Positions 13,377-52,584 of a DNA stretch of 64,000 nt are shown here, piece by piece (within the stretch, counting starts at the first letter, position 1; each line of letters opens with the position of its first letter). A program made the translations under genes and the position numbers. The notes under the pieces were generated by a model that ran no database searches, was not told the origin of the DNA, and worked only from the letters and a program-made list of their open reading frames with translations. Source of the stretch: Actinotalea subterranea (GTDB lineage: Bacteria > Actinomycetota > Actinomycetes > Actinomycetales > Cellulomonadaceae); NCBI RefSeq assembly GCF_008364845.1, contig NZ_VTTP01000001.1, forward strand, positions 519,594 to 583,593. The letters are read 5' to 3'.

Positions 13377-13904
13377 ATGGCAGATCCCTTCGTCGGTGAG
13401 ATCCGCATGGGTGCGTGGACCTTCGCGCCCACAGGCTGGGCGTTCTGCGACGGCCAGCTCATGCCGATCAGCCAGAACACGGCGCTGTTCGTGCTACTGG
13501 GCACCTCATACGGCGGAGACGGGATAACGACGTTCGCCCTGCCTGACCTGCGTGGTGCGTCGCCTGTCCACGCCGGGCAGGGGCCGGGGCTGAGCCCCTA
13601 CGGCCTGGGTGAGCGGGGCGGCGTGGAGGAGGTGACGCTCCTGGAGTCGCAGATCCCGGCGCACGACCACGGCGTTCGTGCCGGGACCCGTGGGACCACG
13701 GGCAACCCGTCGGCCGCCGTGTGGGCGCAGGCGCAGCAGGGGCGCTCGCGCGAGCAGCTCTACTCGACCGGTCCGGTGAGCGGAGCCATGGCCCCCGGCG
13801 CGATCGCACCGGCCGGCGGCAGCGTGCCGCACAACAACCGGCCGCCGTCGTTGTCCCTCACGTTCGTCATCGCGCTCGTGGGGGTCTTCCCGCCTCGGCC
13901 CTGA
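13377..13904 (+). CDS. phage tail-collar domain protein 3 (MdpB-like)
   Basis: A 175-aa third paralogue, nine bases downstream of the second, with GAGGA before ATG 13377. Motifs FVGEIRMGAWTFAPTGWAFC, LFVLLGTSYGGDG, LPDLRGASPVH, IPAHDHGVRAG and the terminal NRPPSLSLTFVIALVGVFP match the family. Some codons in the first third are less GC-rich than those of its neighbours (CTACTGGGCACCTCATAC), a mild hint of a different history. Last gene of the operon; it ends 47 bases from the convergent glf gene. Confidence 0.9.
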   Translation: MADPFVGEIRMGAWTFAPTGWAFCDGQLMPISQNTALFVLLGTSYGGDGITTFALPDLRGASPVHAGQGPGLSPYGLGERGGVEEVTLLESQIPAHDHGVRAGTRGTTGNPSAAVWAQAQQGRSREQLYSTGPVSGAMAPGAIAPAGGSVPHNNRPPSLSLTFVIALVGVFPPRP

Positions 13905-33985: not shown

Positions 33986-34141
33986 GCCCACCTCCTCGTC
34001 GGCTCGTGACCTGGCCGACCTCGCTGCCCGCCGGGCCCTCATCATGCCCTCCGGGTCGGAGGGCCACCTGCGATGCGCCCGACCGTGGCCGCATCGCCGT
34101 AGTCCGGTGCACGGTCGCGGTGCGACCGGTTGATGGAGCGA

Positions 34142-37213: not shown

Positions 37214-38148
37214 GCGTCGACCTCCCCGCGCCGGGTCACCGACATCTGGAGGAACACGATGAGCGCGACGATCATCGTCAGGACCAGGGCGATCGCCGAG
37301 CCGTAGCCGTAGTTCCCGTACACGAACGCCTCCTTGTACATGACCAGGGACAGCGTCTGGGTCGAGACGCCGGGGCCGCCGCCCGTCATGACGAAGACCT
37401 GGTCGAAGAGCTTGAGCGACGACGTCATCGTCAGCGCGGTCGCGATCGTGACCGCCTGACCCAGCAGCGGACGCGTGACGCTCCAGAACTTGCGGACGGT
37501 CCCGGCACCGTCGATCGCAGCCGCCTCGTAGAGCTCCTCGGGGATGCCCTGGAGGCCCGCGAGGAAGATGACCATCGACATGCCCACGTGGTGCCAGATG
37601 ACGCTCGCGATGATCGACCACAGCGCCAGGCGCTCGTTGCCGAGCCAGCTCTGGCGCAGGCCCTCGAGACCGATCGCGCTCATCGCGCTGTCGAGCGGGC
37701 CGCCAGGCGTGTAGATGTACTGCCACAGCAGACCGGTGATGACGGGCGGGAGCATCATCGGGGCGAAGAACACCGTGCGCAGCAGGTTGCGGCCGCGGAT
37801 CGCGCTGTTGAGGGCCAGCGCGAGGAGCAGCCCGAGGCCCGTCTGCACGATCGTGAGCACCACGGCGATGGTCAGCGTGTTGGTGAGCGACGCCGTCGCG
37901 GTCTGGTCGCCGAGCATCTGCCGGAAGTTGTCCAGGCCCACCCAGCTCGCCTCGGCGCTGCCGCGCCAGTCCGTGAACGCGTAGAGCGCGCCGGCGAGGC
38001 TCGGGTAGAGGACGACGACGCCGTAGACCGCGAGCGCCGGGAGCAGGAACCACTGCGGCACCTGACGCATCGCGGCGCGTCGGCGCCGCCCGGGCACGCC
38101 CGAGGAGGGCCGCGTCGCGACCCTCCTCGGACTCGTCGAGATGCTCAA
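37210..38148 (-). CDS. CUT1 sugar ABC importer permease 1 (MalF-like)
   Basis: A 312-aa permease with six helices and the EAA loop EELYEAAAIDGAGTVRKFWSVTRP. The start assigned is TTG 38148, overlapping the TGA of the binding-protein gene in the same coupled manner as its neighbours. The alternative is ATG 38070, which would remove a basic N-terminal tail of 26 residues just before helix 1. Works with the adjacent permease and lipoprotein to import an oligosaccharide. Confidence 0.92.
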   Translation of the reverse strand: MSISTSPRRVATRPSSGVPGRRRRAAMRQVPQWFLLPALAVYGVVVLYPSLAGALYAFTDWRGSAEASWVGLDNFRQMLGDQTATASLTNTLTIAVVLTIVQTGLGLLLALALNSAIRGRNLLRTVFFAPMMLPPVITGLLWQYIYTPGGPLDSAMSAIGLEGLRQSWLGNERLALWSIIASVIWHHVGMSMVIFLAGLQGIPEELYEAAAIDGAGTVRKFWSVTRPLLGQAVTIATALTMTSSLKLFDQVFVMTGGGPGVSTQTLSLVMYKEAFVYGNYGYGSAIALVLTMIVALIVFLQMSVTRRGEVDA

Positions 38149-39443
38149 CGCGAGGCCGCCTCGTAGGCCGCGTCGAGGGCCTCGAGCAGGTCGTCGACCG
38201 TCGCCGAGCCGCTCACCATCTGCTGCCCAGTGGTCATCAGCGCATCCGCGATGGTGCCTGCGGGCCAGGCGTGGTTCGCGAACGGCGTCGTGCGACCCGA
38301 GTCGAGGTACGGCTGCACCGAGCGGTTGAGGCCGTTGTCCACGGGATCGGCGTTGGTCAGCGCGGGGATGGCGCCGGTCGCCTCGGCCCAGGCGGCCGTG
38401 CGCTCGGGCGCCGAGATGTACTCGAGGAAGGCCGTCGCCGCAGCGGCGTGCTCGGCGTCCTTGTTGACGACGAGGTAGTCGGGGCTGAAGGGGATGTGCG
38501 TCTCCTCCGGGTCGTCGCTCGCGGGGAACGCGAAGGACCCGAGGCGATCCTCGCCGCCTTCGAAGAAGCCCGCGAGGACGGGCGACGCGGCCGACGGCAT
38601 CACGACGATCGCGGCCTCACCGCTGCCGACCGACTGCATGGCGGGGTCGCCCGGCATCCCGAGCGGGTCCGGCGTCGTGTAGCCGTTGTCGATGAGCCAC
38701 ATGAGCTTCTCGAAGGTCTCGCGCCAGCCGGCCGACTCCGCGAAGCTCGTCTCGCCGGCCTCGAGGTCCGCGTAGAAGTCGGGCTCCGCACCGTTGACCA
38801 GCGTCGCCGACAGCGCGTACGTGAGGAACTGGATCACGTAGTTGTCCGCCAGGCCGAGCGCGATCGGCACCTTGCCCGCCGCCTTGAGCTCGTCGAGGAC
38901 CTCGACGAGCTCGTCCCAGGTCGTGGGCGGCTCGACGCCGACCTCCTCGAACACGTCCTTGTTGTAGAACGCGAGGATCGCCTGGCCGAACGTCGGGTAG
39001 GCGTACACCGCGTCGCCGTCCTGCTGGAGGGGCGCGAACGACTCGGGGACGTACTGGGCCCACTCCTGGTCGGAGAGGTCCATGAGGACGCCCTCGTTGG
39101 CGAGGTTGAGCACCGACGAGGGTGCTGCGTAGCCGGGCGCCGACCGGTAGATGTCCGGGGCGGTTCCGGAGGTGATCTGGATGCGGAGCTGCTCGTTGAG
39201 CGCTCCGGCCTCGGCGTACGTCCCGTTGACCGCGACGCCGGTCTCGGCCTCGAAGTCCTCGGTGAAGAGCTCGAGACCGCGTTCGCTGGTGGTCGCGAGC
39301 GTCAGGGTGCCGCCCAGGTCGCCGTCGGCGTCCGGGGTCTCGGCCCCCTCCGACGCGTTGCCGCTCGAGCACGCGGCGAGCAGGGCGAGAGCTGTGGCGG
39401 CGCCGACGGCGGCAAGGCCGCGGTGCCTCAGGTCGACATCCAT
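38145..39443 (-). CDS. CUT1 sugar ABC importer solute-binding lipoprotein
   Basis: A 432-aa lipoprotein: signal peptide and lipobox LLAACSS (Cys25), then a family 1 extracellular binding domain with LTLATTSERGLELFTEDFEAETG, GTAPDIYRS, YAYPTFGQAILAFYNKDVFEEVG and PPTTWDELVEVL. ATG 39443 has AATGGAGG upstream. It is first of the transport genes and follows the alcohol dehydrogenase by 85 bp. The ligand is presumably the sugar or oligosaccharide whose L-6-deoxyhexose is oxidised by the island. Aromatic-rich pocket residues cannot be resolved from sequence alone. Confidence 0.95.
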   Translation of the reverse strand: MDVDLRHRGLAAVGAATALALLAACSSGNASEGAETPDADGDLGGTLTLATTSERGLELFTEDFEAETGVAVNGTYAEAGALNEQLRIQITSGTAPDIYRSAPGYAAPSSVLNLANEGVLMDLSDQEWAQYVPESFAPLQQDGDAVYAYPTFGQAILAFYNKDVFEEVGVEPPTTWDELVEVLDELKAAGKVPIALGLADNYVIQFLTYALSATLVNGAEPDFYADLEAGETSFAESAGWRETFEKLMWLIDNGYTTPDPLGMPGDPAMQSVGSGEAAIVVMPSAASPVLAGFFEGGEDRLGSFAFPASDDPEETHIPFSPDYLVVNKDAEHAAAATAFLEYISAPERTAAWAEATGAIPALTNADPVDNGLNRSVQPYLDSGRTTPFANHAWPAGTIADALMTTGQQMVSGSATVDDLLEALDAAYEAASR

Positions 39444-39528: not shown

Positions 39529-40608
39529 TCATGCGTGCACGGGGTCGAAGACCACGAGCACCTTGCCTGCGACGTCGTGACCTCGTGCGAGGTCGCTGAA
39601 CGCTGCGGGCGCCTCCTCCGGGGTGACCCGGAGGGAGATGAGGGATGCCAGGAGGTCGGGGACCTCGCCGGCCCACCGGGCCGTGGCGGCGAACTCGGCC
39701 GGCGAGTAGCAGAACGCGCCGACGAGCGTGCGCTCCTGGGTCGAGACGGCGAACGCGTCCAGGCGCACGTCGGGTGCGGCCATGCCGACCAGGACGCACC
39801 GGCCGCCGGGCTGCGTGGCGTTCAGCGCGGTCGCGATCGTGGCCGAGGAGCCGACGGCGTCGAGCGTCACCTCAGCGGGGCCGCCAGCCTGGACCTGCTC
39901 CGCGACGTCGCCGGCCGCCGGGTCGAGCACCTGCGCACCGAGGCCCGCCACGAGCAGTCGGCGTGACTCGAGGGGTTCACTGACCCGGATGCGCCCGGCA
40001 CCGAGGCGCCGGCACGCGAGCACCGCAGCCTGGCCGATCGGTCCCCCACCGAGCACGAGGACGTCCGCCCCCTCGCGGACCTCTCCCCGTACGGCTGCGT
40101 GGTAGCCGACGGCGAGCGGCTCGACGAGGGCTCCGTGCGTGACTCTGGAGGCACCGGAGGAGCCGGAGGTGAAGGGCACCACGTTGCTGGCGGGGACCGC
40201 GAGGTAGTCCGCGAAGGCGCTCGTGAGATCGGGGTCGACGCCGATGACCCGGCGGCTCCGGCAGATGTGGCCGCGACCGGCGTGGCAGGCGGGGCACTGC
40301 CCGCAGGCGAGGCCGGGGTTGACCGTGACGAGGTCGCCCAGGCCGGCTTCCCCGCCCCGTGCGCCTGGGCCGAGGCCGACGACGGTGCCGACCGTCTCAT
40401 GGCCCATGACCTGACCCGGGCGGCGCCGCCCGTTCTCGCCCGTGTACCCATGGAGGTCGGAGCCGCAGATGCCCGTCGCGTGGATGCGCAGCAGGACCTC
40501 GCCGGGGCCGGCCTCGGGCGTGGGCAGCTCCGCGACGGAGAGGTGTCCGTAGTCCTCGAGGACGAGCGCTCGCATCGTCGTCGGAGGCGCTGCGGTGAGC
40601 TGGGCCAT
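39529..40608 (-). CDS. zinc-dependent MDR alcohol/sugar dehydrogenase
   Basis: A 359-aa medium-chain dehydrogenase. Catalytic zinc ligands: CGSD near residue 49, GHE (HETVGTVVG) and EPLA. The structural zinc Cys cluster is CGQCPACHAGRGHIC. The nucleotide-binding motif is GGGPIGQAAV. ATG 40608 has GAGG upstream. In this island it could oxidise the free sugar to its lactone or the 2-keto-3-deoxy acid to the 2,4-diketo acid; the sequence does not decide. Its promoter region holds an IclR-type box and a GTTTCA palindrome, so it likely heads the ADH-ABC-SGNH operon. Confidence 0.92.
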   Translation of the reverse strand: MAQLTAAPPTTMRALVLEDYGHLSVAELPTPEAGPGEVLLRIHATGICGSDLHGYTGENGRRRPGQVMGHETVGTVVGLGPGARGGEAGLGDLVTVNPGLACGQCPACHAGRGHICRSRRVIGVDPDLTSAFADYLAVPASNVVPFTSGSSGASRVTHGALVEPLAVGYHAAVRGEVREGADVLVLGGGPIGQAAVLACRRLGAGRIRVSEPLESRRLLVAGLGAQVLDPAAGDVAEQVQAGGPAEVTLDAVGSSATIATALNATQPGGRCVLVGMAAPDVRLDAFAVSTQERTLVGAFCYSPAEFAATARWAGEVPDLLASLISLRVTPEEAPAAFSDLARGHDVAGKVLVVFDPVHA

Positions 40609-40742: not shown

Positions 40743-41600
40743 TCAGGGGAGCCGCCCGAGCCGGTCGAGGACACGCGCGAGTGCGCCACCCAGGACCTCC
40801 TCGACCTCCTGCGAGGCGAGCCCCGCGCGTCGGCGGACGACCTCGAGGGACTGGCGGTAGGTCAGGTGCCGCGCCGCGACGGGGTGGTCCGAGCCCCACA
40901 CCAGGCGCGCGGACCCGAACGTCGCGCGGAGCTCGCGCAGCACGTGGAGCACGCCCGTGTAGGGCACGTCCCACGGCTCCGGAGCGAGGTAGTGGAAGCC
41001 GGACACCTTCACGTGGGCCGACGGCGCGTCGGCCAGCGCCACGAGGCCGTCCAGGTGCGGGCGCGAGGCGGGGTCGACCAGGCCCTGGTGATGGATGAGC
41101 ACGGGCGCCGCCCCCGGGTGCTCCAGCAGGAGGGCACGCAGGTCGGCGTGCCACACCGGCGGGACGTGCAGGCTCACGAGGACGCCGAGGTCCGCAGCGC
41201 GCTCCAGGAGGTCGCCCGCCTCGCTCGTGCGCAGCCAGCCGTCGTCCTCGTCAGCGAGGTAGTGCGTGACCCCTACCGCTCCCGTGCGCCCCACCTCGTC
41301 CTCGAGCCGCCGAGCGATCCCCGCCCGGTGGTAGCTCGCGGACCAGCGCGAGTCGACGTCGACCACCGCCAGCAGCCGTCCGGGGTGGCGCCTCGCCGCC
41401 GCCGCGACGTAGTCGTTGTTGTCGCTGTTGGCCGTCCGGGGGTCGGGCCCCCCGATCCGGGCGGCGACGACGAGGGCGGCGTCGACGCCGTGCTCGTCGA
41501 GGGTTCGTAGGAGGCGGCCGGAGCGAGCCCGGTCCGGGTCGGGCTCGTGCGCGTCGTAGGGCCAGGTCCGCCAGGCGTGGCAGTGGGCGTCGAGGATCAC
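40743..41600 (-). CDS. amidohydrolase-family lactonase (L-fuconolactonase/COG3618 type)
   Basis: A 285-aa TIM-barrel amidohydrolase starting at GTG 41600. Features: N-terminal metal motif DAHCHAWR (H-x-H), a central SLHVPP strand, IHHQGL, and the catalytic Asp in LVWGSDHPVA near the C-terminus. This layout belongs to the group containing L-fuconolactonase, L-rhamnono-lactonase and 2-pyrone-4,6-dicarboxylate lactonase. Context selects a sugar lactonase opening L-fucono- or L-rhamnono-1,4-lactone. Divergent from the IclR gene across 116 bases with an IclR-type box. Confidence 0.85.
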   Translation of the reverse strand: MILDAHCHAWRTWPYDAHEPDPDRARSGRLLRTLDEHGVDAALVVAARIGGPDPRTANSDNNDYVAAAARRHPGRLLAVVDVDSRWSASYHRAGIARRLEDEVGRTGAVGVTHYLADEDDGWLRTSEAGDLLERAADLGVLVSLHVPPVWHADLRALLLEHPGAAPVLIHHQGLVDPASRPHLDGLVALADAPSAHVKVSGFHYLAPEPWDVPYTGVLHVLRELRATFGSARLVWGSDHPVAARHLTYRQSLEVVRRRAGLASQEVEEVLGGALARVLDRLGRLP

Positions 41601-41707: not shown

Positions 41708-41716
41708 CGGGTGACC

Positions 41717-42502
41717 ATGGCTGAGCACGACGCACCCCGGTTCGCGACCCCAGCGGCCGCCCGGACGCTCCAGGTCCTCGAGCTGCTCGCCGACACGGGC
41801 GAGAGCCTGAACCTCACCGAGATCGCGGCGCGCCTCGACCTGCCCAAGTCGAGCGTCCACCACATGCTCGCCGTGCTCACCGAGTTCGGCTGGGTCGAGC
41901 GCGACCCCGAGACGCTGCGGGTCACGCTCGGGCTCCGCGCCTGGGAGGTCGGCCAGGCCTACCACGTGGCGCAGTCCATGACGCAGCGCGCACGGCCCTT
42001 CATGGACCGGGTGCGGGACGAGATCGGCGAGACCGTGCGCCTCGCCGTCCGCTCCGGCACCGACCAGGTCTGCATCGCGAAGAGCGCGGGCCCGCACCAG
42101 CTCGTGTTCGACCAGCGGGTCGGCGCACGCCTGCCCTGCCACGCCACGGGCCTCGGCAAGGCCCTGCTCGTCGGGCTCACGGGGCCCGAGCTCGAGGCCC
42201 TCTACGCGGACGGCCTCGAGCAGTACACCGAGACGACCCTGCCCGACGTCGCGAGCCTGCGCGCCGAGCTCGAGGTCGCGGCAGGCTCGGGCTACGCCGA
42301 GGACCACGGCGAGTACATCCTCGGCATCCGCTGCGTCGCCGTGCCCGTGCGCCGGCCCGACGGCGTCATCGTCAGCGCCCTGTCCGTGAGCGGGCCGACG
42401 CGACGGTTCGACGACGCGCACGTCGCCGAGTCCCTCGACTCCCTCCAGCGCGCCGCGCGCGAGCTCGGACGACGCCTCGGCGAGGAGACCGACCTGACCT
42501 GA
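41717..42502 (+). CDS. IclR-family regulator of the sugar-acid island
   Basis: A 261-aa protein; ATG 41717 is preferred over an upstream in-frame start that would read through the operator (GTG 41711 is a near alternative). The N-terminal winged helix contains LNLTEIAARLDLPKSSVHHML. The C-terminal effector domain contains RLPCHATGLGKALL and YAEDHGEYILGIRCVAVPV, both conserved in IclR. The shared TTC-N8-GAA boxes at its own promoter, the dehydrogenase promoter and the lut/FAH space suggest that it governs the whole pathway. Likely effector is a pathway acid such as a 2-keto-3-deoxy sugar acid, which is inference. Confidence 0.92.
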   Translation: MAEHDAPRFATPAAARTLQVLELLADTGESLNLTEIAARLDLPKSSVHHMLAVLTEFGWVERDPETLRVTLGLRAWEVGQAYHVAQSMTQRARPFMDRVRDEIGETVRLAVRSGTDQVCIAKSAGPHQLVFDQRVGARLPCHATGLGKALLVGLTGPELEALYADGLEQYTETTLPDVASLRAELEVAAGSGYAEDHGEYILGIRCVAVPVRRPDGVIVSALSVSGPTRRFDDAHVAESLDSLQRAARELGRRLGEETDLT

Positions 42503-42558: not shown

Positions 42559-45003
42559 GTGCCGCACGCCCAGACCCGTCCCGTGCTCGAGCGAGCAACC
42601 CTCGAGACGTCGCTCAAACCCTTCCACCCGGCCGACCGGGACTCCTGGGAGCAGACGGCACGCGCCCTCTTCGAGCAGTGGACGCCGCTGCTGCGCACGG
42701 CCCGCACGTGCTCGGTGCTGCTGTGGGTCTCGGACGGCAGCGAGATCCTGGACTGGGCGGGCGACCTGGACGACGAGCTCGAGTGGGCCCGCTACATCGG
42801 CTTCTGCAACACCGGCGCCGGGCCCTACGGCGAGCCCAAGGAGCCGGGCCGCGTCGCCGTGCCCTACCGGGACGGACCTGCGACGCTGCGGTACGCCGAC
42901 GTCGCCGAGCTCGTGGCGATCCTGCGTCGCGTGGGCACCGAGCTGGGCCGGCCCACCGAGGTAGGGGCGACCTTCGACCCCGGGCCCGAGTTCGCGCCGT
43001 CGTCGTTCAAGTACGAGCGGCACCCCGAGGTCGTGGCCCGCGGCGAGGAGATCGGCATCGGCCCGATCATCCAGATGGTCAGGCACTTCAGCACCCTGCA
43101 CGCCGACGAGCGCCGGTACGCGGCCTTCCCGGACGGCATCGTCGAGGGCACGTCGTTCGGCGAGTTCCTCGGGCGCCAGGCGCAGCACTACGTCGACGCG
43201 CTCGGCTTCGACTACCTGTGGCTCTCGAACGGGTTCGGCTTCAGCTCCTACGCCTGGTCCGAGCTCGGGGAGACGTTCGACGGCGCGCGGTTCAGGTCCG
43301 AGCGGGTCGGCGAGCTGCGGGACCGCGCGCTGGGCTTCTGGGCCGACCTCCACGCCCACCTGCGCGTACCCGTCGAGGTCCGCGGCACCAACCAGACGGC
43401 CGGGATCGACATCGGCGCCGACGCCGTCCCCGCGCTCGAGATCTACGAGCGCGGCCACGTCGCGTCGCCGCCGCCCAACTCCCCGTGGGGGCCGCTCAAC
43501 GAGGACTTCGGCATCGAGCTCGCGGGCTTCATGTCGCGCATCGCGCACCTGCCGCGCGGCTCCGCGGGCTACCGCTTCCGGTTCTACGCGAACGACCCGT
43601 GGTTCTGGCAGCAGCCCTGGTGGGACTTCTACGACCGCCAGCCGTTCGACATCGACCTCCCCCTCGCGGTCAGCCGCCTCGACCAGGACGGCACGGTCCA
43701 CGGTGCGCGCGAGGTCAACGTCCTCACGGTCGACACCGCGCACGGCGTGCTGGACGAGCGGTGCGGCCGCGAGGTCGGCGGGTACGTGGCACGCGCGCTC
43801 GAGGCCCGGCCTGACGCCGCGGGCCCGCTCGTGTGGGTCTACCCGTTCCGCGAGTACCACGAGGCGATGGCCGCGGACCCGTCGTCGATCGCCCGCCCGC
43901 ACGCCGAGGACTGGGCCCTGACCGCGGCGATCAACGCCGGGCTCCCGCTCAACACCGTCGTGTCGACCGACGCCCTGCCCGGCGCGCATGCCGCGGGTGC
44001 CCTCGCGTCGCGGGTCCTCGTCGTGCCTGCGGGAGCGCTCGCCGACCACGTCGTCGAGGTGCTCGACTCGCACGCCCGCGCGGGCGGCACGGTCGTCGTG
44101 CACGGCTCCACCGCCGGGCTGGGCGCGCGCGCCCTCGACCTGCTCGGTGTGGGGCCCACGGATGCGGGCGTCGCGGGCGCGCTCCGGGTACGCACCGCGC
44201 TCGGCGGCGACCGGGTGCGCGACGGCGAGCTGCCGCGCACGCTCCACCACGAGGCGTCCGTGTCCCACGGCGACCTCACGGAGCAGGTCCGGACGTCGGA
44301 CGTCGAGGTCCTCGTCACGGTCGAGGGCACCGGTGGGACCCACCCCTGGGCGACCTCCCGGGGCGTCGGCGCCGGCCACGTGCTGTGGGCGCGGGGGTCC
44401 GCACCGTTCACCTACGCTCCGCCCGACGCGCGCGGCGTGCGGGCGCACGTGGGCGTGGACCGCTCCGCCCACCTCGACCCGGGTGCGCTGCTGCGCGACG
44501 TCGTCGGGACGGCGGGCCTGACCGTCGGGCACGAGCTGCGCACGCCGGCGTCGGGGCGCGTCGTCCTGACGGTCCACCGCAGCGACGGCGCCTGGTGGTT
44601 CGCCGGCTACCTCGCCGACACGACGACGTCCGTGCGGCTCGGGCTGCCCGACGGCGCACCCCTCCTGACGCAGCACAGCTGCTGGTTCGACGACGGCGGC
44701 GCGACCTACCACCTGACGGGCGCGACCAGGGCGGAGTGCCGCGTGCTCGTCCGGCGGGCCCGGCACGGGACCCTGCGCTGCCGCGAGGTCGCCCCGTACC
44801 CGGCCGACATGAGCAGGGCGCTGCAGGTCGAGGGCCTGCACGACGCCGACGTCGCGCTCGAGCTGCCGCCCGCCGCGCGCCTGCGGCTCGTGGTCGCCGG
44901 GCAGGAGGTCGACTGCGGCCCCGCGGGTACCGAGCCCCGGCGCCACGAGCTCCGCGGGGTGACGGGGACGCTCACCCTGAGCTGGCAGGAGCTCGACCGG
45001 TGA
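42559..45003 (+). CDS. large glycosidase-like protein of an unassigned family
   Basis: An 814-aa cytoplasmic protein from GTG 42559 (CGGAG upstream). It begins LERATLETSLKPFHPADRDSW. A conserved-looking N-terminal two thirds resembles a TIM-barrel glycosidase, with motifs GATFDPGPEFAPSSFKYE, DYLWLSNGFGFSSYAW, EVRGTNQTAGIDIG, PPPNSPWGPLN and NDPWFWQQPWWDFYDR. The last 250 residues are beta-rich. I recall the same opening and core motifs in uncharacterised proteins of Bacillota sugar-utilisation clusters but know no assigned activity. The stop overlaps the dehydratase GTG by two bases, so it is co-translated with the sugar-acid enzymes. A role releasing or isomerising the deoxysugar is plausible but unproven. 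Confidence 0.75.
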   Translation: MPHAQTRPVLERATLETSLKPFHPADRDSWEQTARALFEQWTPLLRTARTCSVLLWVSDGSEILDWAGDLDDELEWARYIGFCNTGAGPYGEPKEPGRVAVPYRDGPATLRYADVAELVAILRRVGTELGRPTEVGATFDPGPEFAPSSFKYERHPEVVARGEEIGIGPIIQMVRHFSTLHADERRYAAFPDGIVEGTSFGEFLGRQAQHYVDALGFDYLWLSNGFGFSSYAWSELGETFDGARFRSERVGELRDRALGFWADLHAHLRVPVEVRGTNQTAGIDIGADAVPALEIYERGHVASPPPNSPWGPLNEDFGIELAGFMSRIAHLPRGSAGYRFRFYANDPWFWQQPWWDFYDRQPFDIDLPLAVSRLDQDGTVHGAREVNVLTVDTAHGVLDERCGREVGGYVARALEARPDAAGPLVWVYPFREYHEAMAADPSSIARPHAEDWALTAAINAGLPLNTVVSTDALPGAHAAGALASRVLVVPAGALADHVVEVLDSHARAGGTVVVHGSTAGLGARALDLLGVGPTDAGVAGALRVRTALGGDRVRDGELPRTLHHEASVSHGDLTEQVRTSDVEVLVTVEGTGGTHPWATSRGVGAGHVLWARGSAPFTYAPPDARGVRAHVGVDRSAHLDPGALLRDVVGTAGLTVGHELRTPASGRVVLTVHRSDGAWWFAGYLADTTTSVRLGLPDGAPLLTQHSCWFDDGGATYHLTGATRAECRVLVRRARHGTLRCREVAPYPADMSRALQVEGLHDADVALELPPAARLRLVVAGQEVDCGPAGTEPRRHELRGVTGTLTLSWQELDR

Positions 45004-46100
45004 CCCGCATCACCACGGTCCGTACCCGCACCGCACCGTTCTCCTCCGGCACCTGGCTCGACGAGGTCCGCGTGTCGACCCCCATGGCCCCCTTCCCCGA
45101 GCACGCCGAGCGCCGGTCGACGTGGCGCGGGCCGGGCGCCGACGTCGTGTGGACGCACGTCGCGACGGCCGACCCCGAGGTGTTCGGCATCGGCCAGGCC
45201 CGGGGCGGCGCCGTCGTCGAGTCGCTCGTCCAGGAGCACCTCGTGCCTCTGCTCAGCACGCTCGACCCGACCGCACCCGTGCACGCGGCCGCCGTCCTGC
45301 GTCGCGCGGTCGCCCCCTACGCCGAGGGCGGCGTCGCCGAGATGGCGGTCTCGGCCGTCGAGCTCGCCCTGTGGGACCTGAGCGCACGGGCGGCGGGCCT
45401 GCCGCTGTTCCGCCTGCTCGGCGGCACCGCGGACGCGCTCCCGTACTACCTGACGACCCCGGCGCCCGAGCTGCTCGACCGCCCCGAGGTCGCGCACATG
45501 CTGCCCGGCGCGCGCTGCGTCAAGGTCCCCATGGCGTACGGGCCCCACGACGGCCCGGCCCGGATGCGCGACAACCTGGCCCGGCTCGCCGCCGTGCGCG
45601 AGCGCGTCCCCGCGGGCATCCCGCTCGCGGTCGACTGCTTCATGTCCTGGGACCTGCCGTATACGCTCCGGTTCGTCGCCGCCGCACGTGACCTCGACCT
45701 CGCCTGGGTCGAGGAGCCCCTCAACCCGGGCGACGTCGCCGGGCACCGTGAGCTGCGCGCACGCCTCGGCCCCGTGGCGCTCGCCGCGGGTGAGCACGCC
45801 TTCGGCCTGCGGGCCGGGCGCGCCCTCGTCGAGCAGCGCGCCGTCGACGTGCTCCAGAGCGACGTGACGTGGTGCGGCGGGCTCGACGTCGCGCGCACGC
45901 TCGGGGCGCTCGCCCAGGACGCCGGCGTACTCTTCGCCCCGCACGCCTCCGCGATGCAGCCGTGGGCGGTCCACCTCCTCGCCGCGACGGGTCCCGGTGC
46001 CGTCGCCGAGGTGCTCCTGGGCCTCGAGGACGGCGTGCAGGTCCCGCGCCCCGGTGACGGACCCGGCGTCGGGATCCGCCCCGAGGAGGTCGGGCTGTGA
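45000..46100 (+). CDS. mandelate racemase/enolase-family sugar-acid dehydratase (rhamnonate-dehydratase-like)
   Basis: A 366-aa enzyme starting at GTG 45000, overlapping the preceding stop. The enolase-superfamily barrel shows the strand-2 Lys in CVKVPMA, metal ligands Asp in AVDCFMSWD, Glu in WVEEPLNPGD and Glu in AAGEHAFG, then LQSDVTWCGGL and the catalytic His in FAPHASAM. The MSWD/EEPLNPGD/GEHAFG/WCGG combination resembles L-rhamnonate dehydratase. It would convert the L-6-deoxyhexonate to its 2-keto-3-deoxy acid. L-fuconate dehydratase is the main alternative. Confidence 0.87.
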   Translation: MTRITTVRTRTAPFSSGTWLDEVRVSTPMAPFPEHAERRSTWRGPGADVVWTHVATADPEVFGIGQARGGAVVESLVQEHLVPLLSTLDPTAPVHAAAVLRRAVAPYAEGGVAEMAVSAVELALWDLSARAAGLPLFRLLGGTADALPYYLTTPAPELLDRPEVAHMLPGARCVKVPMAYGPHDGPARMRDNLARLAAVRERVPAGIPLAVDCFMSWDLPYTLRFVAAARDLDLAWVEEPLNPGDVAGHRELRARLGPVALAAGEHAFGLRAGRALVEQRAVDVLQSDVTWCGGLDVARTLGALAQDAGVLFAPHASAMQPWAVHLLAATGPGAVAEVLLGLEDGVQVPRPGDGPGVGIRPEEVGL

Positions 46101-47170
46101 CCGCACGCCCGGTCCGCGTCGCGGTCGTCGGGGCCGGGTGGTGGTCGACCGACCACCACGTGCCGGCCCTCCTGGGGCACCCCGACGCCGAGGTCGTCGC
46201 GGTGTGCGACCCCGTGCCGGATCGCGCCCAACGGCTCGCGGCGCAGGCCGGCGCGCTCGCCGCCGCGAACCTCGACGACGCCCTCGCGTGCACGCAGGTC
46301 GACGCCGTCGTGATCAGCACCCCGCACGTCACGCACCACGCCCTCGTCGGCGCGGCGCTCGACGCGGGCCTCGACGTCCTGGTGGAGAAGCCGCTGGCGC
46401 TCACCGCGGACCACGCCTTCGACCTCGTCGAGCGGGCCGAGCGCCTCGGCCGGCACCTCGTGACCGGCTACACGCACCAGCTCGACGCGGGTGCCGGCGC
46501 CGCGCGCAGCGCCGTCCGTGCGGAGATCGGCGACCTCGTGCAGGTCACCGTCGAGTTCTCCTCCCGCGCGGGCGACCTCTTCGTGGCCGCGCAGCACGGC
46601 ATCGGCAGCGACGACCGGGGACGGCACCCCGAGGCGTACTCCGCAGCCAACGGCGGCGGGCAGGCGCACACCCAGCTCACGCACGCCCTCGGCATGCTGT
46701 GCTGGGCCACCGACGAGGAGCTCGCCCAGGTCGCCGCGTTCGTGGGGAGCCACGGCCTCGACGTGGACGTCGACGACGCGGCCGCCTTCCGGATGCGGGG
46801 CGGCGCGACGGGCGTGGTCGTCGGGAGCGGGGCGACACCCTCCGGCTCGCCACCCCGTCAGCACGTGCGCTACCTCGGGACCCGCGGCACGGTCGAGCAG
46901 GACCTGCACCGCGCACGCGTCGTGGTGCACCGGGCCGACGGCAGCCAGGTGCACCACGAGCCCGGCCAGCACACCCCGGCCTACCAGGCTGGTGCCCCGG
47001 CGCGCGCTCTCGTCGACGTCGTCCTCGGGCGCACGGAGAACCCGGCTCCCCCGCGGCCGGCCGCCGCCGCGGTCGCCGCCGTCGAGGCGCTGCTGACGGC
47101 CGCACGCGAGCACCGCGTGGTCGACGTCGCGCCCCTCCCCCCGCCACCCGGGGTACGGCCGCTCGGCTGA
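46097..47170 (+). CDS. Gfo/Idh/MocA-family oxidoreductase
   Basis: A 357-aa NAD(P)-dependent enzyme starting at GTG 46097, overlapping the dehydratase stop (GTGA). The N-terminal Rossmann motif is AVVGAGWWSTDHHVPAL. VVISTPHVTHH and the catalytic-Lys motif DVLVEKPLAL are canonical. The C-terminal domain has the open-sheet substrate region GGGQAHTQLTHALGMLCW. Last gene of the plus-strand operon. It may oxidise the sugar at C1 or an intermediate at C4, complementing the zinc dehydrogenase. Specificity is open. Confidence 0.9.
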   Translation: MTARPVRVAVVGAGWWSTDHHVPALLGHPDAEVVAVCDPVPDRAQRLAAQAGALAAANLDDALACTQVDAVVISTPHVTHHALVGAALDAGLDVLVEKPLALTADHAFDLVERAERLGRHLVTGYTHQLDAGAGAARSAVRAEIGDLVQVTVEFSSRAGDLFVAAQHGIGSDDRGRHPEAYSAANGGGQAHTQLTHALGMLCWATDEELAQVAAFVGSHGLDVDVDDAAAFRMRGGATGVVVGSGATPSGSPPRQHVRYLGTRGTVEQDLHRARVVVHRADGSQVHHEPGQHTPAYQAGAPARALVDVVLGRTENPAPPRPAAAAVAAVEALLTAAREHRVVDVAPLPPPPGVRPLG

Positions 47171-47294: not shown

Positions 47295-49844
47295 TCAGCC
47301 GACCCGAGCGGCCCCGAGGTCCCCTGCATGCCGCAGCACGGGCCAGGCCGCGAAGGCGCCGTCGGGCCGGGACGTGCGCACACCGATGGTGACCTCCTGG
47401 CCGGCGAGGAGCGTGACCATCCCCGCGTCGACGCGCGCGCCCGGGTCCACCCGGTCCACGTGGAGAGTGAGGTCGCGCACGTACGCGTAGGCGTGGACGT
47501 CGAGCTCGACGCCGCCCGCGACCGCCCGCACCGTGACGCTCACGGGCTCGCGGTCGAGCGCCTGGTCGGCGACCTCGGCGTAGTCCCACACCGCACGCCC
47601 GTACCCGGGCACATCGACGACGAGGACCTCACGCGCGGGGTCGGCCGCATGGGCCAGGTCCGCGGGCAGCAGGAGGGTCTGCTGCCCGTGCCCATCGACG
47701 CGCGCCGCGAGCTCCGCGCGCGCGAGCTCGACGCCGTCGAACGTGGTCCTGCGGGCCGTGACCGTCCCCGCCCACGGCTCGCCCGTGTCCTCGACGAGCA
47801 CGACGCTCAGGCCCGCGTCACGAGGCTGGACCGTGACGAGCCTTGGCGCGTACGCGGCGCGCAGGGCGAACCAGAGGGGCTTGCGGTGCTCGTGGAAGTC
47901 GACGGCCGCCCAGGAGATCACCGGCCAGCTGTCGTTGAGCTGCCACATCACGACCCCGGTGCAGCGCGGCGCGAGGGAGCGCAGGTGCTCGATCCCGTAC
48001 CGGACGGCGTGGGCCTGGTTGAGCTGGGTCGCCCAGTGCCAGTCCTCGATGGTCGTCGGGGCCGGCAGGTGCCCGGCGAGGCCCCGCTCGAGCTTCCCGT
48101 TGCCGTCGGCCGCCTTCTGGTGGACGAGCATGTGCGGGCCGTACGGGTCGAGCGGCTCGTCGTGGACCACGCTCGTGAGCGTGGTCCACGCGGGCGGGCC
48201 CTGGAAGCCGAACTCGGAGACGAAGCGCGGCCGGTGGTCGCGGTAGGTCGAGTAGTCCCGCGTGTTCCACACGTCCCAGATGTGCATGGTCCCGTGGTCA
48301 GCGTCGTTGGGGTGCGCCCCGGCTCGGAAGGAGTACGGGCTCGCGGGGGTGTACGGCCGCGTCGGGTCGAGCTCGGCCACGACGCGGGGCAGGAGGTCGT
48401 GGTAGTAGCCGTCGCCCCACGCCCGTCCGTCGAGCTCCTCCTGCCAGCCCCAGTCGACATGGCCCCAGGTGTTCTCGTTGTTGCCGTTCCACAGGACGAG
48501 GCTCGGGTGCGCGGCCAGGCGCGTCACGGCCTCGCGCGCCTCGGCCTCCACCTCTCGTGCGAGCCAGTCGTCCTCGGGGTAGCACGCGCACGCGAAGAGG
48601 AAGTCCTGCCACACGAGCACGCCTGCCTCGTCGCACAGGTCGTAGAGGTGCTCGGACTCGTAGAGCCCTCCGCCCCACACGCGCAGCAGGTTCATGTGGG
48701 CGTCGGTCGCGTCCCGTACGCGGCGCTCGTACCTGTCGCGCGTCATCTCGGTGACGAACGCGTGGTCGGGGATCCAGTTGGCGCCGCGGACCCGCACGAG
48801 CCGACCGTTGACGAGCAGGTGGAAGGGCGTGCCCTCCGCGTCGGGAGTCGTGTCGAGGCGCACGGTCCGGAAGCCGACCCGGCCGGTCCAGCGGTCCGGG
48901 GCACCGTCGTCGGGTCGCGCAGCGCCGTCGAGGCCTGCGGCTTGGTCGTTCCCGGCGCCCCCGTCGGACCGGGCCGAGCCGTCGGACCGGGCCGAGCCGT
49001 CGGGTCGGGGTGAGCCGAGACGCACGACGACGTCGTAGAGGGGTTGCGCGCCGTAGCCGCGGGGCCACCACAGCCGGACGTCGGGCATCCGGACCTCGAC
49101 GAGCCCGCGCGTCTCGCCCTCGGGGACCACGGCGGTCGCGCTGCGACCGTCGACCTCGGCCATGACCTCGACCGGGCCGGTGCTGCCGGGGGCGCGCTCG
49201 ATGTCGACGTGGACGCGGAGCACGCCGGTGGAGCCGTCGACGTCCACGAGGGGACGGACCGCGGCGAGCCGCGCACCCGACCAGCCCTCGATGCCGATCT
49301 CCTGCCAGATCCCGGCCGTGGCGACGTCGACTCCCCAGTCCCACCCGAAGTTGGCGGCCGACTTGCGGAGCATGTTGTACGCGTGCGGGTAGTTCCGCGG
49401 GAGGGCGCCGTACCGGGCGTCGCGCTCCTCGCCCTCGGTGACGGGCGCGGCGAACGTGATGCTCAGCGTGTGCTGGCCGGGAGCGAGGTCGGGCAGCGCG
49501 AAGCGGTGGGTCCGGTGCTGGTTCTCGGCCGTGCCGATGACCCGGCCGTCGAGCACGAGCTCGGCGACGGTGTCGAGGCCTCGCGCGACGAGCGTGTGCT
49601 GGTCCGCACCGTCGTCGGCCCAGGTGAACGTCGTCGTGTACTGCCAGACGGTGCGGCCCACCCAGGACAGGAGCGCCTCGTTGTCACCGTCGAAGGGGGA
49701 CGGGATGAGCCCGGCCGCGAGCAGGTCGGTGTGCACGCACCCGGGCACCGTCGCCGGGACACCCGCGTCGGCGAGGGGCTCGAGCCCGGCGGGGACGGGG
49801 GTCAGCGGTCGGAGGTGCCAGCCGGTCGCGATCGAGGTCCACAT
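47295..49844 (-). CDS. GH2-family beta-mannosidase-like glycoside hydrolase
   Basis: An 849-aa cytoplasmic enzyme. The N-terminal jelly-roll (ATVPGCVHTDLLAAGLIPSPF, then YNMLRKSAANFGWDWG) and Ig-like domain precede the TIM barrel, with acid/base Glu457 in WNGNNEN and nucleophile Glu544 in SEFGFQ. This is the beta-mannosidase branch of GH2, and the N-terminal GWDWG is typical of it. Residues 279-318 are an insertion of Ser/Asp/Gly/Ala repeats (DGSARSDGSARSDG) at the end of the second domain. The promoter region holds a perfect GTTTCA palindrome. It likely cleaves imported beta-mannosides or manno-oligosaccharides. Confidence 0.92.
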   Translation of the reverse strand: MWTSIATGWHLRPLTPVPAGLEPLADAGVPATVPGCVHTDLLAAGLIPSPFDGDNEALLSWVGRTVWQYTTTFTWADDGADQHTLVARGLDTVAELVLDGRVIGTAENQHRTHRFALPDLAPGQHTLSITFAAPVTEGEERDARYGALPRNYPHAYNMLRKSAANFGWDWGVDVATAGIWQEIGIEGWSGARLAAVRPLVDVDGSTGVLRVHVDIERAPGSTGPVEVMAEVDGRSATAVVPEGETRGLVEVRMPDVRLWWPRGYGAQPLYDVVVRLGSPRPDGSARSDGSARSDGGAGNDQAAGLDGAARPDDGAPDRWTGRVGFRTVRLDTTPDAEGTPFHLLVNGRLVRVRGANWIPDHAFVTEMTRDRYERRVRDATDAHMNLLRVWGGGLYESEHLYDLCDEAGVLVWQDFLFACACYPEDDWLAREVEAEAREAVTRLAAHPSLVLWNGNNENTWGHVDWGWQEELDGRAWGDGYYHDLLPRVVAELDPTRPYTPASPYSFRAGAHPNDADHGTMHIWDVWNTRDYSTYRDHRPRFVSEFGFQGPPAWTTLTSVVHDEPLDPYGPHMLVHQKAADGNGKLERGLAGHLPAPTTIEDWHWATQLNQAHAVRYGIEHLRSLAPRCTGVVMWQLNDSWPVISWAAVDFHEHRKPLWFALRAAYAPRLVTVQPRDAGLSVVLVEDTGEPWAGTVTARRTTFDGVELARAELAARVDGHGQQTLLLPADLAHAADPAREVLVVDVPGYGRAVWDYAEVADQALDREPVSVTVRAVAGGVELDVHAYAYVRDLTLHVDRVDPGARVDAGMVTLLAGQEVTIGVRTSRPDGAFAAWPVLRHAGDLGAARVG
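48891..49010 (-). repeat. in-frame low-complexity repeat insertion in the GH2 gene
   Basis: About 120 bases encode residues 279-318, with direct copies of a roughly 18-bp unit giving GSARSD. It sits between the Ig-like domain and the barrel, a position where length change is likely tolerated. Confidence 0.7.
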
Positions 49845-49870: not shown

Positions 49871-49962
49871 ATCGTTGCGTCTATTGAAGACGCCACTGTA
49901 GCGCGGCTACGTTGACGTCTCATCCGGGGCCTGGCCCGGGACCGACACAGGGAGATGCACCG

Positions 49963-52584
49963 ATGCAGCACCTGGACATGACGCGACGCACCGTCCTCAA
50001 GGGCCTCGGCGCGGTGGTCGCCACGACGGTTCTCAACCCCGGGCCCGCAGCAGCGGCCGCGACGACCTCCGCCCCGACGACCTGGACGGACGTGCTGGGC
50101 CACTTCGAGTCCAGGCACGAGCCCTGGAGCATCACGGTCGGCGCCGAGTACGGCGGCTCCCGGACCGCGTTCACGCGGGTCGCCGAGGGCGCCCCCGTCG
50201 GAGGCTGGTACGGCCGCCTGGACACCGACTTCTCGGCCGGAGGCCGCTACGGCGGGCTCGTCAAGACGCTCGACCACCTCGACGTCACGCGCGTGACCAT
50301 GAAGGTGCGCGCGGAGAACGTGTCGCGGGTGACGGTGCGGCTCGTGAGCGGCGACCGGACGCTGCGCCAGGGCTACGCCGCGGTGACGCCCGGCTCGAGC
50401 ACCTGGCAGGACGTCGAGGTCACCGCGTGGAACGGCATCGCCGGCTTCGAGGACGCGGTGACCATGCAGATCCAGGTGTGGAAGGACCACCTGACGGGCG
50501 GCAACCTGGCCGGGGCGCTCCTGCTCGACGACATCAGGGTCGAGCACACCGTCACGCCCGTGGTTCCCGCCTCCCTCACGACCGCGGGCCTGCCGGTCGT
50601 CCTGACGGACGACGAGGACCTCGTCCCCCTCACGGTGCGCGCGACGTACGAGGACGGGAGCACCCGGGACGTCACCCAGCACAGCGACCTCGTGTCGAGC
50701 GACCCCGCGGTGCTCACCGTCGACGAGTACGGGTACCTCGTGCCCGTGGGCGCGGGCAGCGCCGTCGTCACCGTCGACCACCTCGGCGCACGTCAGGAGT
50801 TCGCCGTCGACGTACGGGCACCGCAGGCGCTCGCCCCCCTGCGCGTCGTCGAGGGGCGCCTCATGGCCGGCGACGCGCCCTTCGGCTTCACGGGCTTCAA
50901 CTACGACCTGTTCATGCTCAGCTACCCGCGCCGCGCGAGCTGGAGCGGGCTCGACAGCGACATCGCCGTCATGGCCTCGTGGGGGCTCGGGGCCGTACGC
51001 GTCCCCATGAACCTGGGCATGGTCCAGGCCGCCCGGGGCGTGTTCCCCGACGACGAGGCGTGGGCCGGTGAGATCGCCGCGCACGGCTTGAACACCGAGT
51101 GGATGGCGATGCTCGACCACTTCGTCGAACGCGCCGGCAAGCACGGTGTCCGCACCATCATCGACTGGCACCGTGGCCCCGTGGACCCGTACGACTACTG
51201 GATCGGCGGCGTCGCCCAGGACGCCGGCACGGGGAAGCCGGGGACGGCCATCGCCTACCTCGCGCCGTCACCGACCGAGCGCGGCGAGCTCGACATGTCG
51301 AACCCCGAGCACCTCGCGACCCTGCTCGACAGCCACCGCTGGATCGCCGCGCACTTCAAGGACGACCCCGCCGTCCTGGGTGTCGAGATCCCGCACAACG
51401 AGCCGCACGACGCCTACATGTCGATCCAGTCGAACTGGCGCCACGTGACCGAGCGGTGCGCGGCGGCCGTCAAGGCCGGCGACCCCGAGCGGCTGACGTT
51501 CACGATGCCGCCCGCGTACGGCCACGACGTCTCGACGGCCGCACCGACCTGGCAGGTGCCGTTCGGCGTCGACGGGACCGCGCCGCACCACTACCTGCCG
51601 AACGCCCCCGTGCCGACGCGCGACGACGCCCCCGACCGGCACTCGCCCTGGCTCGCACGCGACGTCGACGCCGTGTTCAGCCACGCGATCGCCTCGCTGT
51701 TCGCCCCGTACTCCACCTCATCCGTGCCCGTGTACAACGGCGAGGGCGGCCACTACGGCTTCGAGTCGTTCCTGCCCGACATGGACAAGGTCGAGGCGGC
51801 CGACCTCATGATGGAGGCCGGCATGGTGCAGTACTACGCCGCCGGCGCCGCGGGTCAGCTCCACTGGTCGCTGTGGCACAACGCCAACGACTACGTGCCG
51901 TTCGTCGAGTCGTTCGCCCGCCACTACCGCCGCTTCTCACCCGTGTACGCGGCCGGGCCCGTGAGCTGGCGAGGTGCGCGCGTCGCCGTCGTCCAGAACC
52001 CGGCGGCGGCGCCCATCTCCAACGGGCACAACTGGTCGGCCGTGCCGTTCGTCAGGCTCGCGCTCGACCTGCACCTGGGCCCGTTCCACCTGCTCACGGA
52101 CGACGAGGTCATCGACAGGCTGCTCACCCAGGTGCCGTCCGGCCTCGAGCAGGTCGACGGGCTCTCCGCGTCGTTCGACTACGACGCCGTGGTGGTGGAC
52201 CGGCGCAACCTGGACGAGCGCGTCAGGTCGGTCCTCGAGCGCGACGACCTCGACGTGCCCGTGCTCTGGGTCGACGACATGGAGCAGCTGGGTGCCACGG
52301 CGCTGGCGTCGTTCCTCACGGGCGCGGGCGTCCAGGTCGACCGGCGCACGAGCCCCGGCGTCCAGCTCGTGACGGGCCCCGCGCACCTGCTCGTCTACCG
52401 GCGCGACGAGCGCAGCCCTGGACGCGTGCGGGTGCACCCGCGGATCCCGGGAGACGGACCGCTCCGACTCGTCGACGAGTCCGGCACCACGGTGTACGAC
52501 GGCACCTCGGCCGACCTGTGGGACCGCGGCGTGCGCGTCGAGATCGAGACGTGGCGCAGCGCGATCCTGCGCATCGAGCGCTGA
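49963..52584 (+). CDS. Tat-exported GH5-like (clan GH-A) glycoside hydrolase
   Basis: An 873-aa protein; ATG 49963 has ACAGGGAG upstream. The Tat leader is TRRTVLKGLGAVVATT, with a probable cleavage after the Ala run near residue 33. Residues 41-195 are a beta-sandwich (carbohydrate-binding-module-like), 205-285 a bacterial Ig-like group 2 domain (LTVRATYEDGSTRDVT), and 295-660 a TIM barrel with acid/base Glu480 in PHNEPHD and nucleophile Glu594 in YNGEGGHYG. The last 210 residues are a C-terminal domain of clan-A type. It could act on a beta-mannan or beta-glucan, fitting the adjacent beta-mannosidase. The exact GH family is uncertain. Confidence 0.8.
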   Translation: MQHLDMTRRTVLKGLGAVVATTVLNPGPAAAAATTSAPTTWTDVLGHFESRHEPWSITVGAEYGGSRTAFTRVAEGAPVGGWYGRLDTDFSAGGRYGGLVKTLDHLDVTRVTMKVRAENVSRVTVRLVSGDRTLRQGYAAVTPGSSTWQDVEVTAWNGIAGFEDAVTMQIQVWKDHLTGGNLAGALLLDDIRVEHTVTPVVPASLTTAGLPVVLTDDEDLVPLTVRATYEDGSTRDVTQHSDLVSSDPAVLTVDEYGYLVPVGAGSAVVTVDHLGARQEFAVDVRAPQALAPLRVVEGRLMAGDAPFGFTGFNYDLFMLSYPRRASWSGLDSDIAVMASWGLGAVRVPMNLGMVQAARGVFPDDEAWAGEIAAHGLNTEWMAMLDHFVERAGKHGVRTIIDWHRGPVDPYDYWIGGVAQDAGTGKPGTAIAYLAPSPTERGELDMSNPEHLATLLDSHRWIAAHFKDDPAVLGVEIPHNEPHDAYMSIQSNWRHVTERCAAAVKAGDPERLTFTMPPAYGHDVSTAAPTWQVPFGVDGTAPHHYLPNAPVPTRDDAPDRHSPWLARDVDAVFSHAIASLFAPYSTSSVPVYNGEGGHYGFESFLPDMDKVEAADLMMEAGMVQYYAAGAAGQLHWSLWHNANDYVPFVESFARHYRRFSPVYAAGPVSWRGARVAVVQNPAAAPISNGHNWSAVPFVRLALDLHLGPFHLLTDDEVIDRLLTQVPSGLEQVDGLSASFDYDAVVVDRRNLDERVRSVLERDDLDVPVLWVDDMEQLGATALASFLTGAGVQVDRRTSPGVQLVTGPAHLLVYRRDERSPGRVRVHPRIPGDGPLRLVDESGTTVYDGTSADLWDRGVRVEIETWRSAILRIER

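Follow-up and report, generated by a model that had tools for sequence, protein, structure and literature searches.

The described enzymes whose architecture most resembles that of the protein examined here are glycoside hydrolases (GH) of families GH42, GH164 and GH151, which join a barrel to a Rossmann-type middle domain and a beta-rich C-terminal domain; among them, the GH151 alpha-L-fucosidase ALfuk2 reportedly uses D154 after strand beta4 and E235 after beta6 (PMC10154630). On the catabolic side, the non-phosphorylating route 3 is described (PMC11199699) as bringing the acids of L-fucose and L-rhamnose to the same diketo intermediate, which is split into pyruvate and L-lactate. Here we analyze hyp814, an 814-amino-acid protein encoded in a 64,000-nucleotide stretch of Actinotalea subterranea (contig NZ_VTTP01000001.1, positions 519,594 to 583,593; hereafter the window). 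The results demonstrate that hyp814 belongs to a conserved family with a predicted three-domain layout, that this family has a partner isomerase, and that the isomerase is replaced in some carriers by a different set of genes. Our overall reading, to which we assign a probability of roughly 0.6, is that hyp814 is a candidate exo-acting glycoside hydrolase from a family lacking a model in Pfam-A and NCBIfam, and that the aldose it frees is then catabolised; the hydrolysis, the sugar and the order of the steps are what we infer.

In this scheme, an ATP-binding cassette (ABC) transporter would bring in an oligosaccharide from which hyp814, a cytoplasmic protein in the window organism that some relatives probably export, would cut a terminal sugar. 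Most likely a 6-deoxy-L-hexose, with L-fucose favoured over L-rhamnose, this aldose would enter catabolism, in most carriers examined, through an arabinose/fucose-isomerase-type enzyme. In the window organism the isomerase would be replaced by a dehydrogenase, a lactonase, a dehydratase, a second dehydrogenase and a FAH hydrolase, yielding pyruvate and lactate.

42559-45003, + strand: hyp814, 814-amino-acid glycosidase-like protein (open reading frame and translation, 44 related loci, alignment A1, structure model)

The open reading frame (ORF) extends from a GTG start, with GGAG a few bases 5' of it (by eye), to a TGA stop, and its GC content at the three codon positions (0.76/0.53/0.97) is coding-like. 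The stop (45001-45003) overlaps the GTG (45000-45002) of the downstream dehydratase gene, so translational coupling of the two genes is plausible. Inspection by eye revealed a hydrophilic N-terminus and no signal peptide in hyp814, and signal peptides in some of its relatives in alignment A1 (Tat-like in L014; Sec-like in L016, L018 and L022).

One scan of GTDB species genomes identified 44 hyp814-related loci in at least eight phyla, comprising Actinomycetota (Phytoactinopolyspora, Tessaracoccus, Arachnia and Agromyces), Bacillota, Armatimonadetes, Lentisphaerae/Verrucomicrobia, Hydrogenedentota, Bacteroidota, Spirochaetes and Planctomycetes, together with one distant match in the Gemmatimonadaceae. 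Alignment A1 combines the window protein with 38 of these relatives (39 rows), which are 33-65% identical to it, and excludes two near copies (L017, L035), three fragments or shifted sequences (L039-L041) and the distant L045. Closer to the window organism the family is rare: a single-protein query found hyp814 only in its own genome among 99 searched, and the A1 profile matched 2 of 396 genomes of the phylum, its own and one with a weak, distant match (49 bits). Horizontal acquisition of hyp814 in the window genome is likely. The invariant positions of A1 include E144, R154-E157, N307-W310, D346, W348, P353-W354 and Y358, and three motifs fall in its most conserved part.

42973-43029, + strand: motif FDPGPEFAPSSFKYERHPE, residues 139-157, after strand beta3 (D140, E144, R154, H155, P156 and E157 invariant in A1)
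43468-43500, + strand: motif PPPNSPWGPLN, residues 304-314, in the loop preceding the helix that carries invariant E320 (N307, S308, P309, W310 and E320 invariant in A1)
43591-43638, + strand: motif NDPWFWQQPWWDFYDR, residues 345-360, after strand beta6 (D346 invariant in A1)

Conservation extends to three remote relatives: a 396-amino-acid Gemmatimonadaceae protein (hhalign probability 99.5%), a 709-amino-acid actinobacterial protein (97.7%) and an unannotated Nonomuraea ORF, the single distant match from a plasmid collection. In a seven-row barrel alignment that includes them, the invariant columns include R154-H155-P156-E157, D183, Y187, P191, G193, Q207, D218, W348 and D356, and position 346 is either D or E. 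These distant relatives, which have the RHPE motif and a conserved D/E-x-W, lie at L048:3908-5134, L045:1362-2549 and L047:1267-3393; those of L045 and L047 had no match in a Pfam search, and the Nonomuraea relative is preceded by a gene for an ABC sugar-binding protein (by eye).

Searches against known families were essentially empty. The window protein matched no Pfam-A and no NCBIfam family at E ≤ 1, and the 39 A1 members gave only scattered weak matches at E ≤ 0.1 (best 0.0068 in Pfam and 0.0073 in NCBIfam), including weak DUF4350 matches in three of them (best E 0.01); the GH42 model PF02449 was among the Pfam matches of neither. Against PDB sequences, phmmer and the A1 profile returned noise (a designed Rossmann protein at E 0.35) and no related chain, and the profile reached no glycosidase at E ≤ 10, hence no ALfuk2 or GH164 chain. 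A comparison of A1 with a shallow GH42 profile (four sequences) by hhalign gave a probability of 0.2% and an E of 0.3, and open-licence full-text literature yielded no paper recognised as a description of the family, which is weak evidence of absence. The family therefore lacks a counterpart in Pfam-A, NCBIfam and PDB sequences and, CAZy and dbCAN lying outside this comparison, is perhaps new.

AlphaFold2 run on A1 produced a model with a mean pLDDT of 93.3 and a pTM of 0.94, in which a predicted barrel (strands at residues 10-18, 48-56, 133-139, 219-222, 272-274, 339-343, 385-389 and 424-428), a Rossmann-like domain and a beta domain follow one another as in GH42, GH151 and GH164.

42586-43938, + strand: predicted (beta/alpha)8 barrel, approximately residues 10-460 (DSSP of the models; Foldseek and VIA matches to barrel glycosidases)
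43954-44148, + strand: predicted Rossmann/glutamine-amidotransferase-like domain, approximately residues 466-530 (model, whole-chain matches to GH42 and GH164 chains, weak DUF4350 matches)
44149-45000, + strand: predicted beta-rich C-terminal part (DSSP)

The best Foldseek matches to the whole model are GH42, GH164 and beta-1,2-glucosyltransferase chains, with E values down to 3.5e-17, low TM scores (0.35-0.51) and large root-mean-square deviations among the 50 matches listed. The GH42 beta-galactosidases and alpha-L-arabinopyranosidases (5e9a, 4oif, 5xb7) lead this list (TM 0.35-0.48) with the whole-chain layout; GH164 beta-mannosidases (6t5o, 6t6g and related) match over the whole chain at an E of approximately 1e-14, and VIA gives 6t6g a Z of 13.8. 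The highest VIA score for the whole model belongs to Cwp19 (Z 18.0, barrel only), with GH5_18 and ALfuk2 (6tvk; Z 15.1 over 533 residues at 6.0 Å) at about 15 and GH42 at 14.7. The model thus points to a glycosidase-type scaffold whose fold alone does not fix a family or clan. We attempted to pick a family by searching with the barrel alone, but dropped the attempt: the top VIA scores lie close together (Cwp19 17.1, GH5_18 16.0, ALfuk2 15.8 over 323 residues at 4.3 Å, GH42 enzyme 8ibr 14.2) and Foldseek returned weak, mixed matches (best E 8e-5), so that no family was singled out, and families missing from these lists are not thereby disfavoured.

Clan GH-A enzymes carry an Asn-Glu pair after beta4 and the nucleophile Glu after beta7. 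The pair is N156-E157 in the GH42 rows of our comparison alignment; in hyp814, an invariant N224-G225 follows beta4 in the 39 rows and the acid/base Glu is missing, and beta7 is followed by D392 as its invariant acid instead of Glu, as placed by the predicted strands. The HPE tripeptide of hyp814 does align with GH42 in one weak hhalign match. Compared in the same way with the Asp and Glu of ALfuk2, hyp814 has N224-G225 after beta4 and D346 after beta6. Invariant acids and aromatics cluster beyond the C-terminal ends of the barrel strands in A1 and the model. Because the GH-A Glu positions are unoccupied and GH151 has its acids after beta4 and beta6, the foremost candidates for catalysis on the model are E144 and E157 on the beta3 loop, D346 and D392, with E144 and E157 as candidate catalytic or binding acids. 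From this we put forward tentatively, at somewhat less than even odds, that hyp814 founds a GH family with a GH-A-like barrel in which the GH-A acid/base and nucleophile Glu have been lost and the active site is formed anew by the beta3 loop (DPGPEF...RHPE) plus D346 or D392, dedicated to deoxysugar release, spread over at least eight phyla and rarely found without the isomerase or its oxidative replacement.

These results bear on most of what the initial annotation, made from the letters alone, had proposed. The 814-residue frame, the conservation of its motifs and the apparent lack of a signal peptide all hold, and its glycosidase-like character agrees with the predicted layout and the fold matches. 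The result named there as counting against it, a confident profile match to a characterised glycoside hydrolase or lyase family, did not appear in Pfam-A or NCBIfam, and "undescribed" stands for these collections and PDB sequences, CAZy and dbCAN being outside what was compared.

Clustering of the neighbours around the 44 first loci revealed one recurrent family, present in 21 of them and, in 9 of these 21, within 60 bp of hyp814 by ORF picks. Arabinose/fucose isomerase C-terminal domains were found in all seven members scanned, and a profile of 16 members (A5) matches L-arabinose isomerase (AraA) structures by hmmsearch at an E of approximately 1e-18. Residues E306, E333, H350 and the HH pair at H450 of Escherichia coli AraA (4f2d/2ajt), of which we take E306, E333, H350 and H450 to be the metal ligands, align by eye with invariant A5 columns E328, E351, H366 and H463-H464. 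Scores are low for both AraA and the sulfoquinovose isomerase SftI: the best AraA equivalog (NF002795) E among the 16 members is 8.9e-21, yet the tabulated member scores 56.5 bits against a cut-off of 622, and the SftI model, a weaker match in 15 of 16 members, gives it 46.9 bits against 700.

A close isomerase (at least 746 bits) is present in 30 of 35 genomes, a set made up of the window genome and those to which 36 of the 44 loci led, and was not found in five. Since 16 of these 30 are sources of A5 rows and are bound to match, a less biased count is that 11 of the 16 genomes without an isomerase at the hyp814 locus have one elsewhere. A new sample of 240 Verrucomicrobiota genomes contains 36 with hyp814 and 39 with a close isomerase, with both in 36, hyp814 alone in 0, the isomerase alone in 3 and neither in 201; the isomerase thus accompanies 36 of 36 carriers (one by a partial match) versus 3 of 204 non-carriers, and 21 of the 36 have both genes no more than 5 kb apart. 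Four of these carriers (G500, G504, G507, G511) were already known. Close isomerases here are those of 38 genomes at or above 700 bits, a line set after seeing a gap between 485 and 700 bits, plus the partial G654 match (model positions 222-484, 461 bits, 15 bp from hyp814), counted by its score per position. Without G654 the counts become 35, 1, 3 and 201 (Fisher P = 2e-37, uncorrected for genome relatedness and hence not to be taken literally). As a control, a sister subfamily of AraA-like isomerases (340-490 bits, in 23 of the 240 genomes) is unlinked to hyp814 (2/36 versus 21/204, P = 0.54). Among 393 Bacteroidales genomes, six have a close isomerase and one has hyp814; this one is the genome on which the draw was centred, and the draw therefore neither supports nor refutes the pairing.

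These counts show a dependence of hyp814 on the isomerase and not the reverse, which is the pattern to expect of a sugar supplied by hyp814. Around the isomerase in eight genomes without hyp814 (L142-L149), an MFS-type importer recurs but no diagnostic glycosidase was seen by eye. In 9 of 80 loci (eight from Bacteroidota and L148 from Verrucomicrobiota), with or without hyp814, a single family of MFS importers is found close to the isomerase; its members include L018:13701-14969, L143:10545-11789 and L144:6322-7569. FAD/Fe-S 2-hydroxyacid dehydrogenase-like genes (by eye) also occur near it in two phyla (L006:12499-15324 and L143:5044-7881, with weaker cases in L033 and L124) and would fit the formation of lactate from a deoxysugar.

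The window genome and those of Phytoactinopolyspora (L002) and Agromyces (L007) lack a close isomerase, and hyp814 in all three is surrounded by a dehydratase, a Gfo/Idh protein, an amidohydrolase, a zinc dehydrogenase and an IclR regulator. The window neighbourhood reads as follows.

31602-34045, - strand: LutA- and LutB-like L-lactate oxidation genes (NCBIfam model matches)
34250-35095, + strand: FAH-family hydrolase nearest 2,4-didehydro-3-deoxy-L-rhamnonate hydrolase, LRA6-like (NF053535 over its full length, 242 bits, cut-off 500)
36320-38148, - strand: two ABC permeases, by eye (sequence; homologues of the first in 7 related loci)
38145-39443, - strand: ABC sugar-binding protein, by eye (sequence; homologues in 8 related loci)
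39529-40608, - strand: zinc-type alcohol dehydrogenase, candidate 2-keto-3-deoxy acid 4-dehydrogenase or aldose dehydrogenase (counterparts in L002 and L007)
40743-41600, - strand: amidohydrolase, candidate sugar lactonase (PF04909; weak L-fucono-1,5-lactonase model match, 32.7 bits, cut-off 400)
41711-42502, + strand: IclR-type regulator (earlier in-frame TTG start at 41669)
45000-46100, + strand: enolase-superfamily sugar-acid dehydratase (MR_MLE domains; rhamnonate dehydratases among the best PDB relatives)
46097-47170, + strand: Gfo/Idh/MocA oxidoreductase, candidate aldose dehydrogenase (domain match; close copies in L002 and L007)
47295-49844, - strand: GH2 beta-mannosidase-type enzyme (in five Tessaracoccus/Arachnia loci a relative immediately precedes the hyp814 homologue)
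49912-52584, + strand: secreted (Tat-type) GH5 protein with a Big-like domain (domain match; homologues in six related actinobacterial loci)

The best named model for the dehydratase is L-rhamnonate dehydratase (NF011968, 177 bits, cut-off 393); the LutB-like protein scores 426 bits with TIGR00273 (LutB/LldF, cut-off 444.8), and the LutA-like one matches the second part of LdhH (161 bits, cut-off 800). Across the 35 carrier genomes, the dehydratase (E ≤ 1e-30) is confined to the same three actinobacteria without the isomerase. The amidohydrolase occurs in five, namely these three (Agromyces copy 42%) and the isomerase carriers G508 (44%) and G498 (34%). Close copies of the FAH hydrolase are found in Agromyces (65%, inside L007, 263 bits to NF053535), Tessaracoccus OS52 (G495, 62%) and Phytoactinopolyspora (59%, on another contig), with weaker family members in all eight actinobacterial genomes searched. 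The five Tessaracoccus/Arachnia loci carry the isomerase together with the sugar-binding protein and GH2 in 5/5 and GH5 in 4/5 within the stretch covered; L002 and L007 share the sugar-binding protein and GH5 but gave no GH2 match. A similar uptake and cleavage set is thus joined to two alternative sugar-degrading routes. The window set resembles route 3 in its candidate dehydrogenases, amidohydrolase-type lactonase candidate, enolase-type dehydratase and LRA6-like hydrolase; the published 4-dehydrogenase is a short-chain dehydrogenase/reductase, and the window candidates are the zinc alcohol dehydrogenase and the Gfo/Idh protein (PMC11199699).

Among solved structures, no GH5 enzyme matched the GH5 protein at 1e-4; the matches were two teneurin-like chains in the region of its Big-like domain. 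It possibly represents an undescribed GH5 subfamily and the maker of the imported oligosaccharide. An SGNH/GDSL-esterase-like protein (by eye; 35184-36320, - strand), without an NCBIfam match at 1e-5, clusters with proteins of six other actinobacterial loci. In Proteiniphilum, hyp814 is directly followed by a 431-amino-acid protein without a Pfam match (L018:12440-13735), with relatives in L022 and L035. Elsewhere in the window, three consecutive short tail-collar-type proteins (by eye) lie at 12354-13904 (+ strand).

The LRA6-like hydrolase and LutB, through the pyruvate and L-lactate route, favour a 6-deoxy-L-hexose as the released sugar, an assignment that we hold at slightly better than even odds. 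The partner isomerase is of the AraA/FucI rather than the RhaA type, which places L-fucose ahead of L-rhamnose, with the rhamnonate affinity of the window dehydratase as a counterweight; L-fucose itself is a provisional choice, with the odds somewhat against it. A GH95 gene lies directly downstream of one hyp814 homologue (L128). That a sugar-acid dehydratase adjoins hyp814, as initially annotated, is borne out by its best model, and the isomerase partner with its oxidative replacement lends good support to the proposal that a released sugar enters catabolism; the deoxysugar identity proposed with it draws indirectly on the LRA6-like hydrolase and LutB, and L-arabinose or a mannoside may be involved instead. 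That hyp814 is a glycoside hydrolase acting instead on L-arabinose (as a pyranoside), D-galactose or D-mannose is unlikely in our view, even though its isomerase is nearest to AraA, GH42 includes an arabinopyranosidase (5xb7), and hyp814 has GH2 beta-mannosidase genes in its vicinity in the window and six related loci, with GH130 in Proteiniphilum. The hydrolase and LutB would imply pyruvate plus lactate, unexpected from C5 sugars or plain hexoses (the Lut genes may be unrelated neighbours), and the dehydratase is nearest to L-rhamnonate dehydratase. D-mannose, suggested as the product by GH2 and GH130, was set aside because this hydrolase and LutB do not fit it. The Pfam tallies of 124 proteins near non-actinobacterial homologues (67 and 57; first 25 of 64 and 68 families) and single scans revealed no recurrent glycan theme beyond the isomerase among the families listed; a sulfatase cluster (8/44 loci), AraC regulators and GDSL esterases recur weakly.

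The three-domain layout shared with GH42, GH151 and GH164, and a comparison that left CAZy and dbCAN outside, would also accommodate hyp814 as a sequence-diverged member of one of these families or of a recent one. The lack of any Pfam, NCBIfam or PDB sequence relative, the 0.2% hhalign probability for GH42 and the missing NE motif speak against this, and we regard it as distinctly unlikely. Less probable still is that hyp814 is a glycoside phosphorylase, transglycosidase, epimerase or lyase preparing the substrate of the isomerase. The beta-1,2-glucosyltransferase (7vkz, 7x87) has the same layout, the GH-A acid/base Glu is missing and hyp814 is coupled to the isomerase; but the signal-peptide form in Proteiniphilum (by eye, L018) stands beside MFS and SSF importers, which fits extracytoplasmic release of a monosaccharide, and the isomerase also occurs without hyp814 and so does not need it.

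Several observations weigh against the proposal that hyp814 is an exo-acting hydrolase feeding a deoxysugar to catabolism. Its fold is common, with no barrel family standing out in Foldseek or VIA, and without the GH-A beta4 Glu it could be a non-hydrolase or use other chemistry. Among NCBIfam models the partner isomerase is nearest to L-arabinose isomerase, five of the six Bacteroidales isomerase carriers lack hyp814, and two Hydrogenedentota metagenome-assembled genomes (G499, G501) have hyp814 with neither a close isomerase nor the dehydratase. Neighbouring genes include GH2 beta-mannosidase, GH130, GH3, GH5, GH78-type and sulfatase genes, which imply no single glycan, and the GH2 and GH130 beta-mannoside enzymes are unexplained by release of a 6-deoxy-L-hexose. 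None of the dehydratase, the lactonase candidate and the hydrolase reaches the equivalog cut-off of the model from which its name is taken. Nor is the swap clean gene by gene, since the amidohydrolase of isomerase carrier G508 is as similar to that of the window as the Agromyces one, and Tessaracoccus OS52, also an isomerase carrier, has the FAH hydrolase as well.

Together, these results establish hyp814 as the representative of a real, conserved and unmodelled family, glycosidase-like and strongly linked to a metabolic partner. Its spread across at least eight phyla without a counterpart in Pfam, NCBIfam or PDB sequences marks a blind spot in the annotation of glycan degradation, and the isomerase partner and its replacement turn a hypothetical protein into a testable two-enzyme function. 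The pairing would also give a substrate to an isomerase subfamily present in 39 of the 240 sampled Verrucomicrobiota genomes (one by a partial match), and, if the active site truly lies outside the GH-A positions, hyp814 would be a GH42-like scaffold re-equipped for other chemistry.

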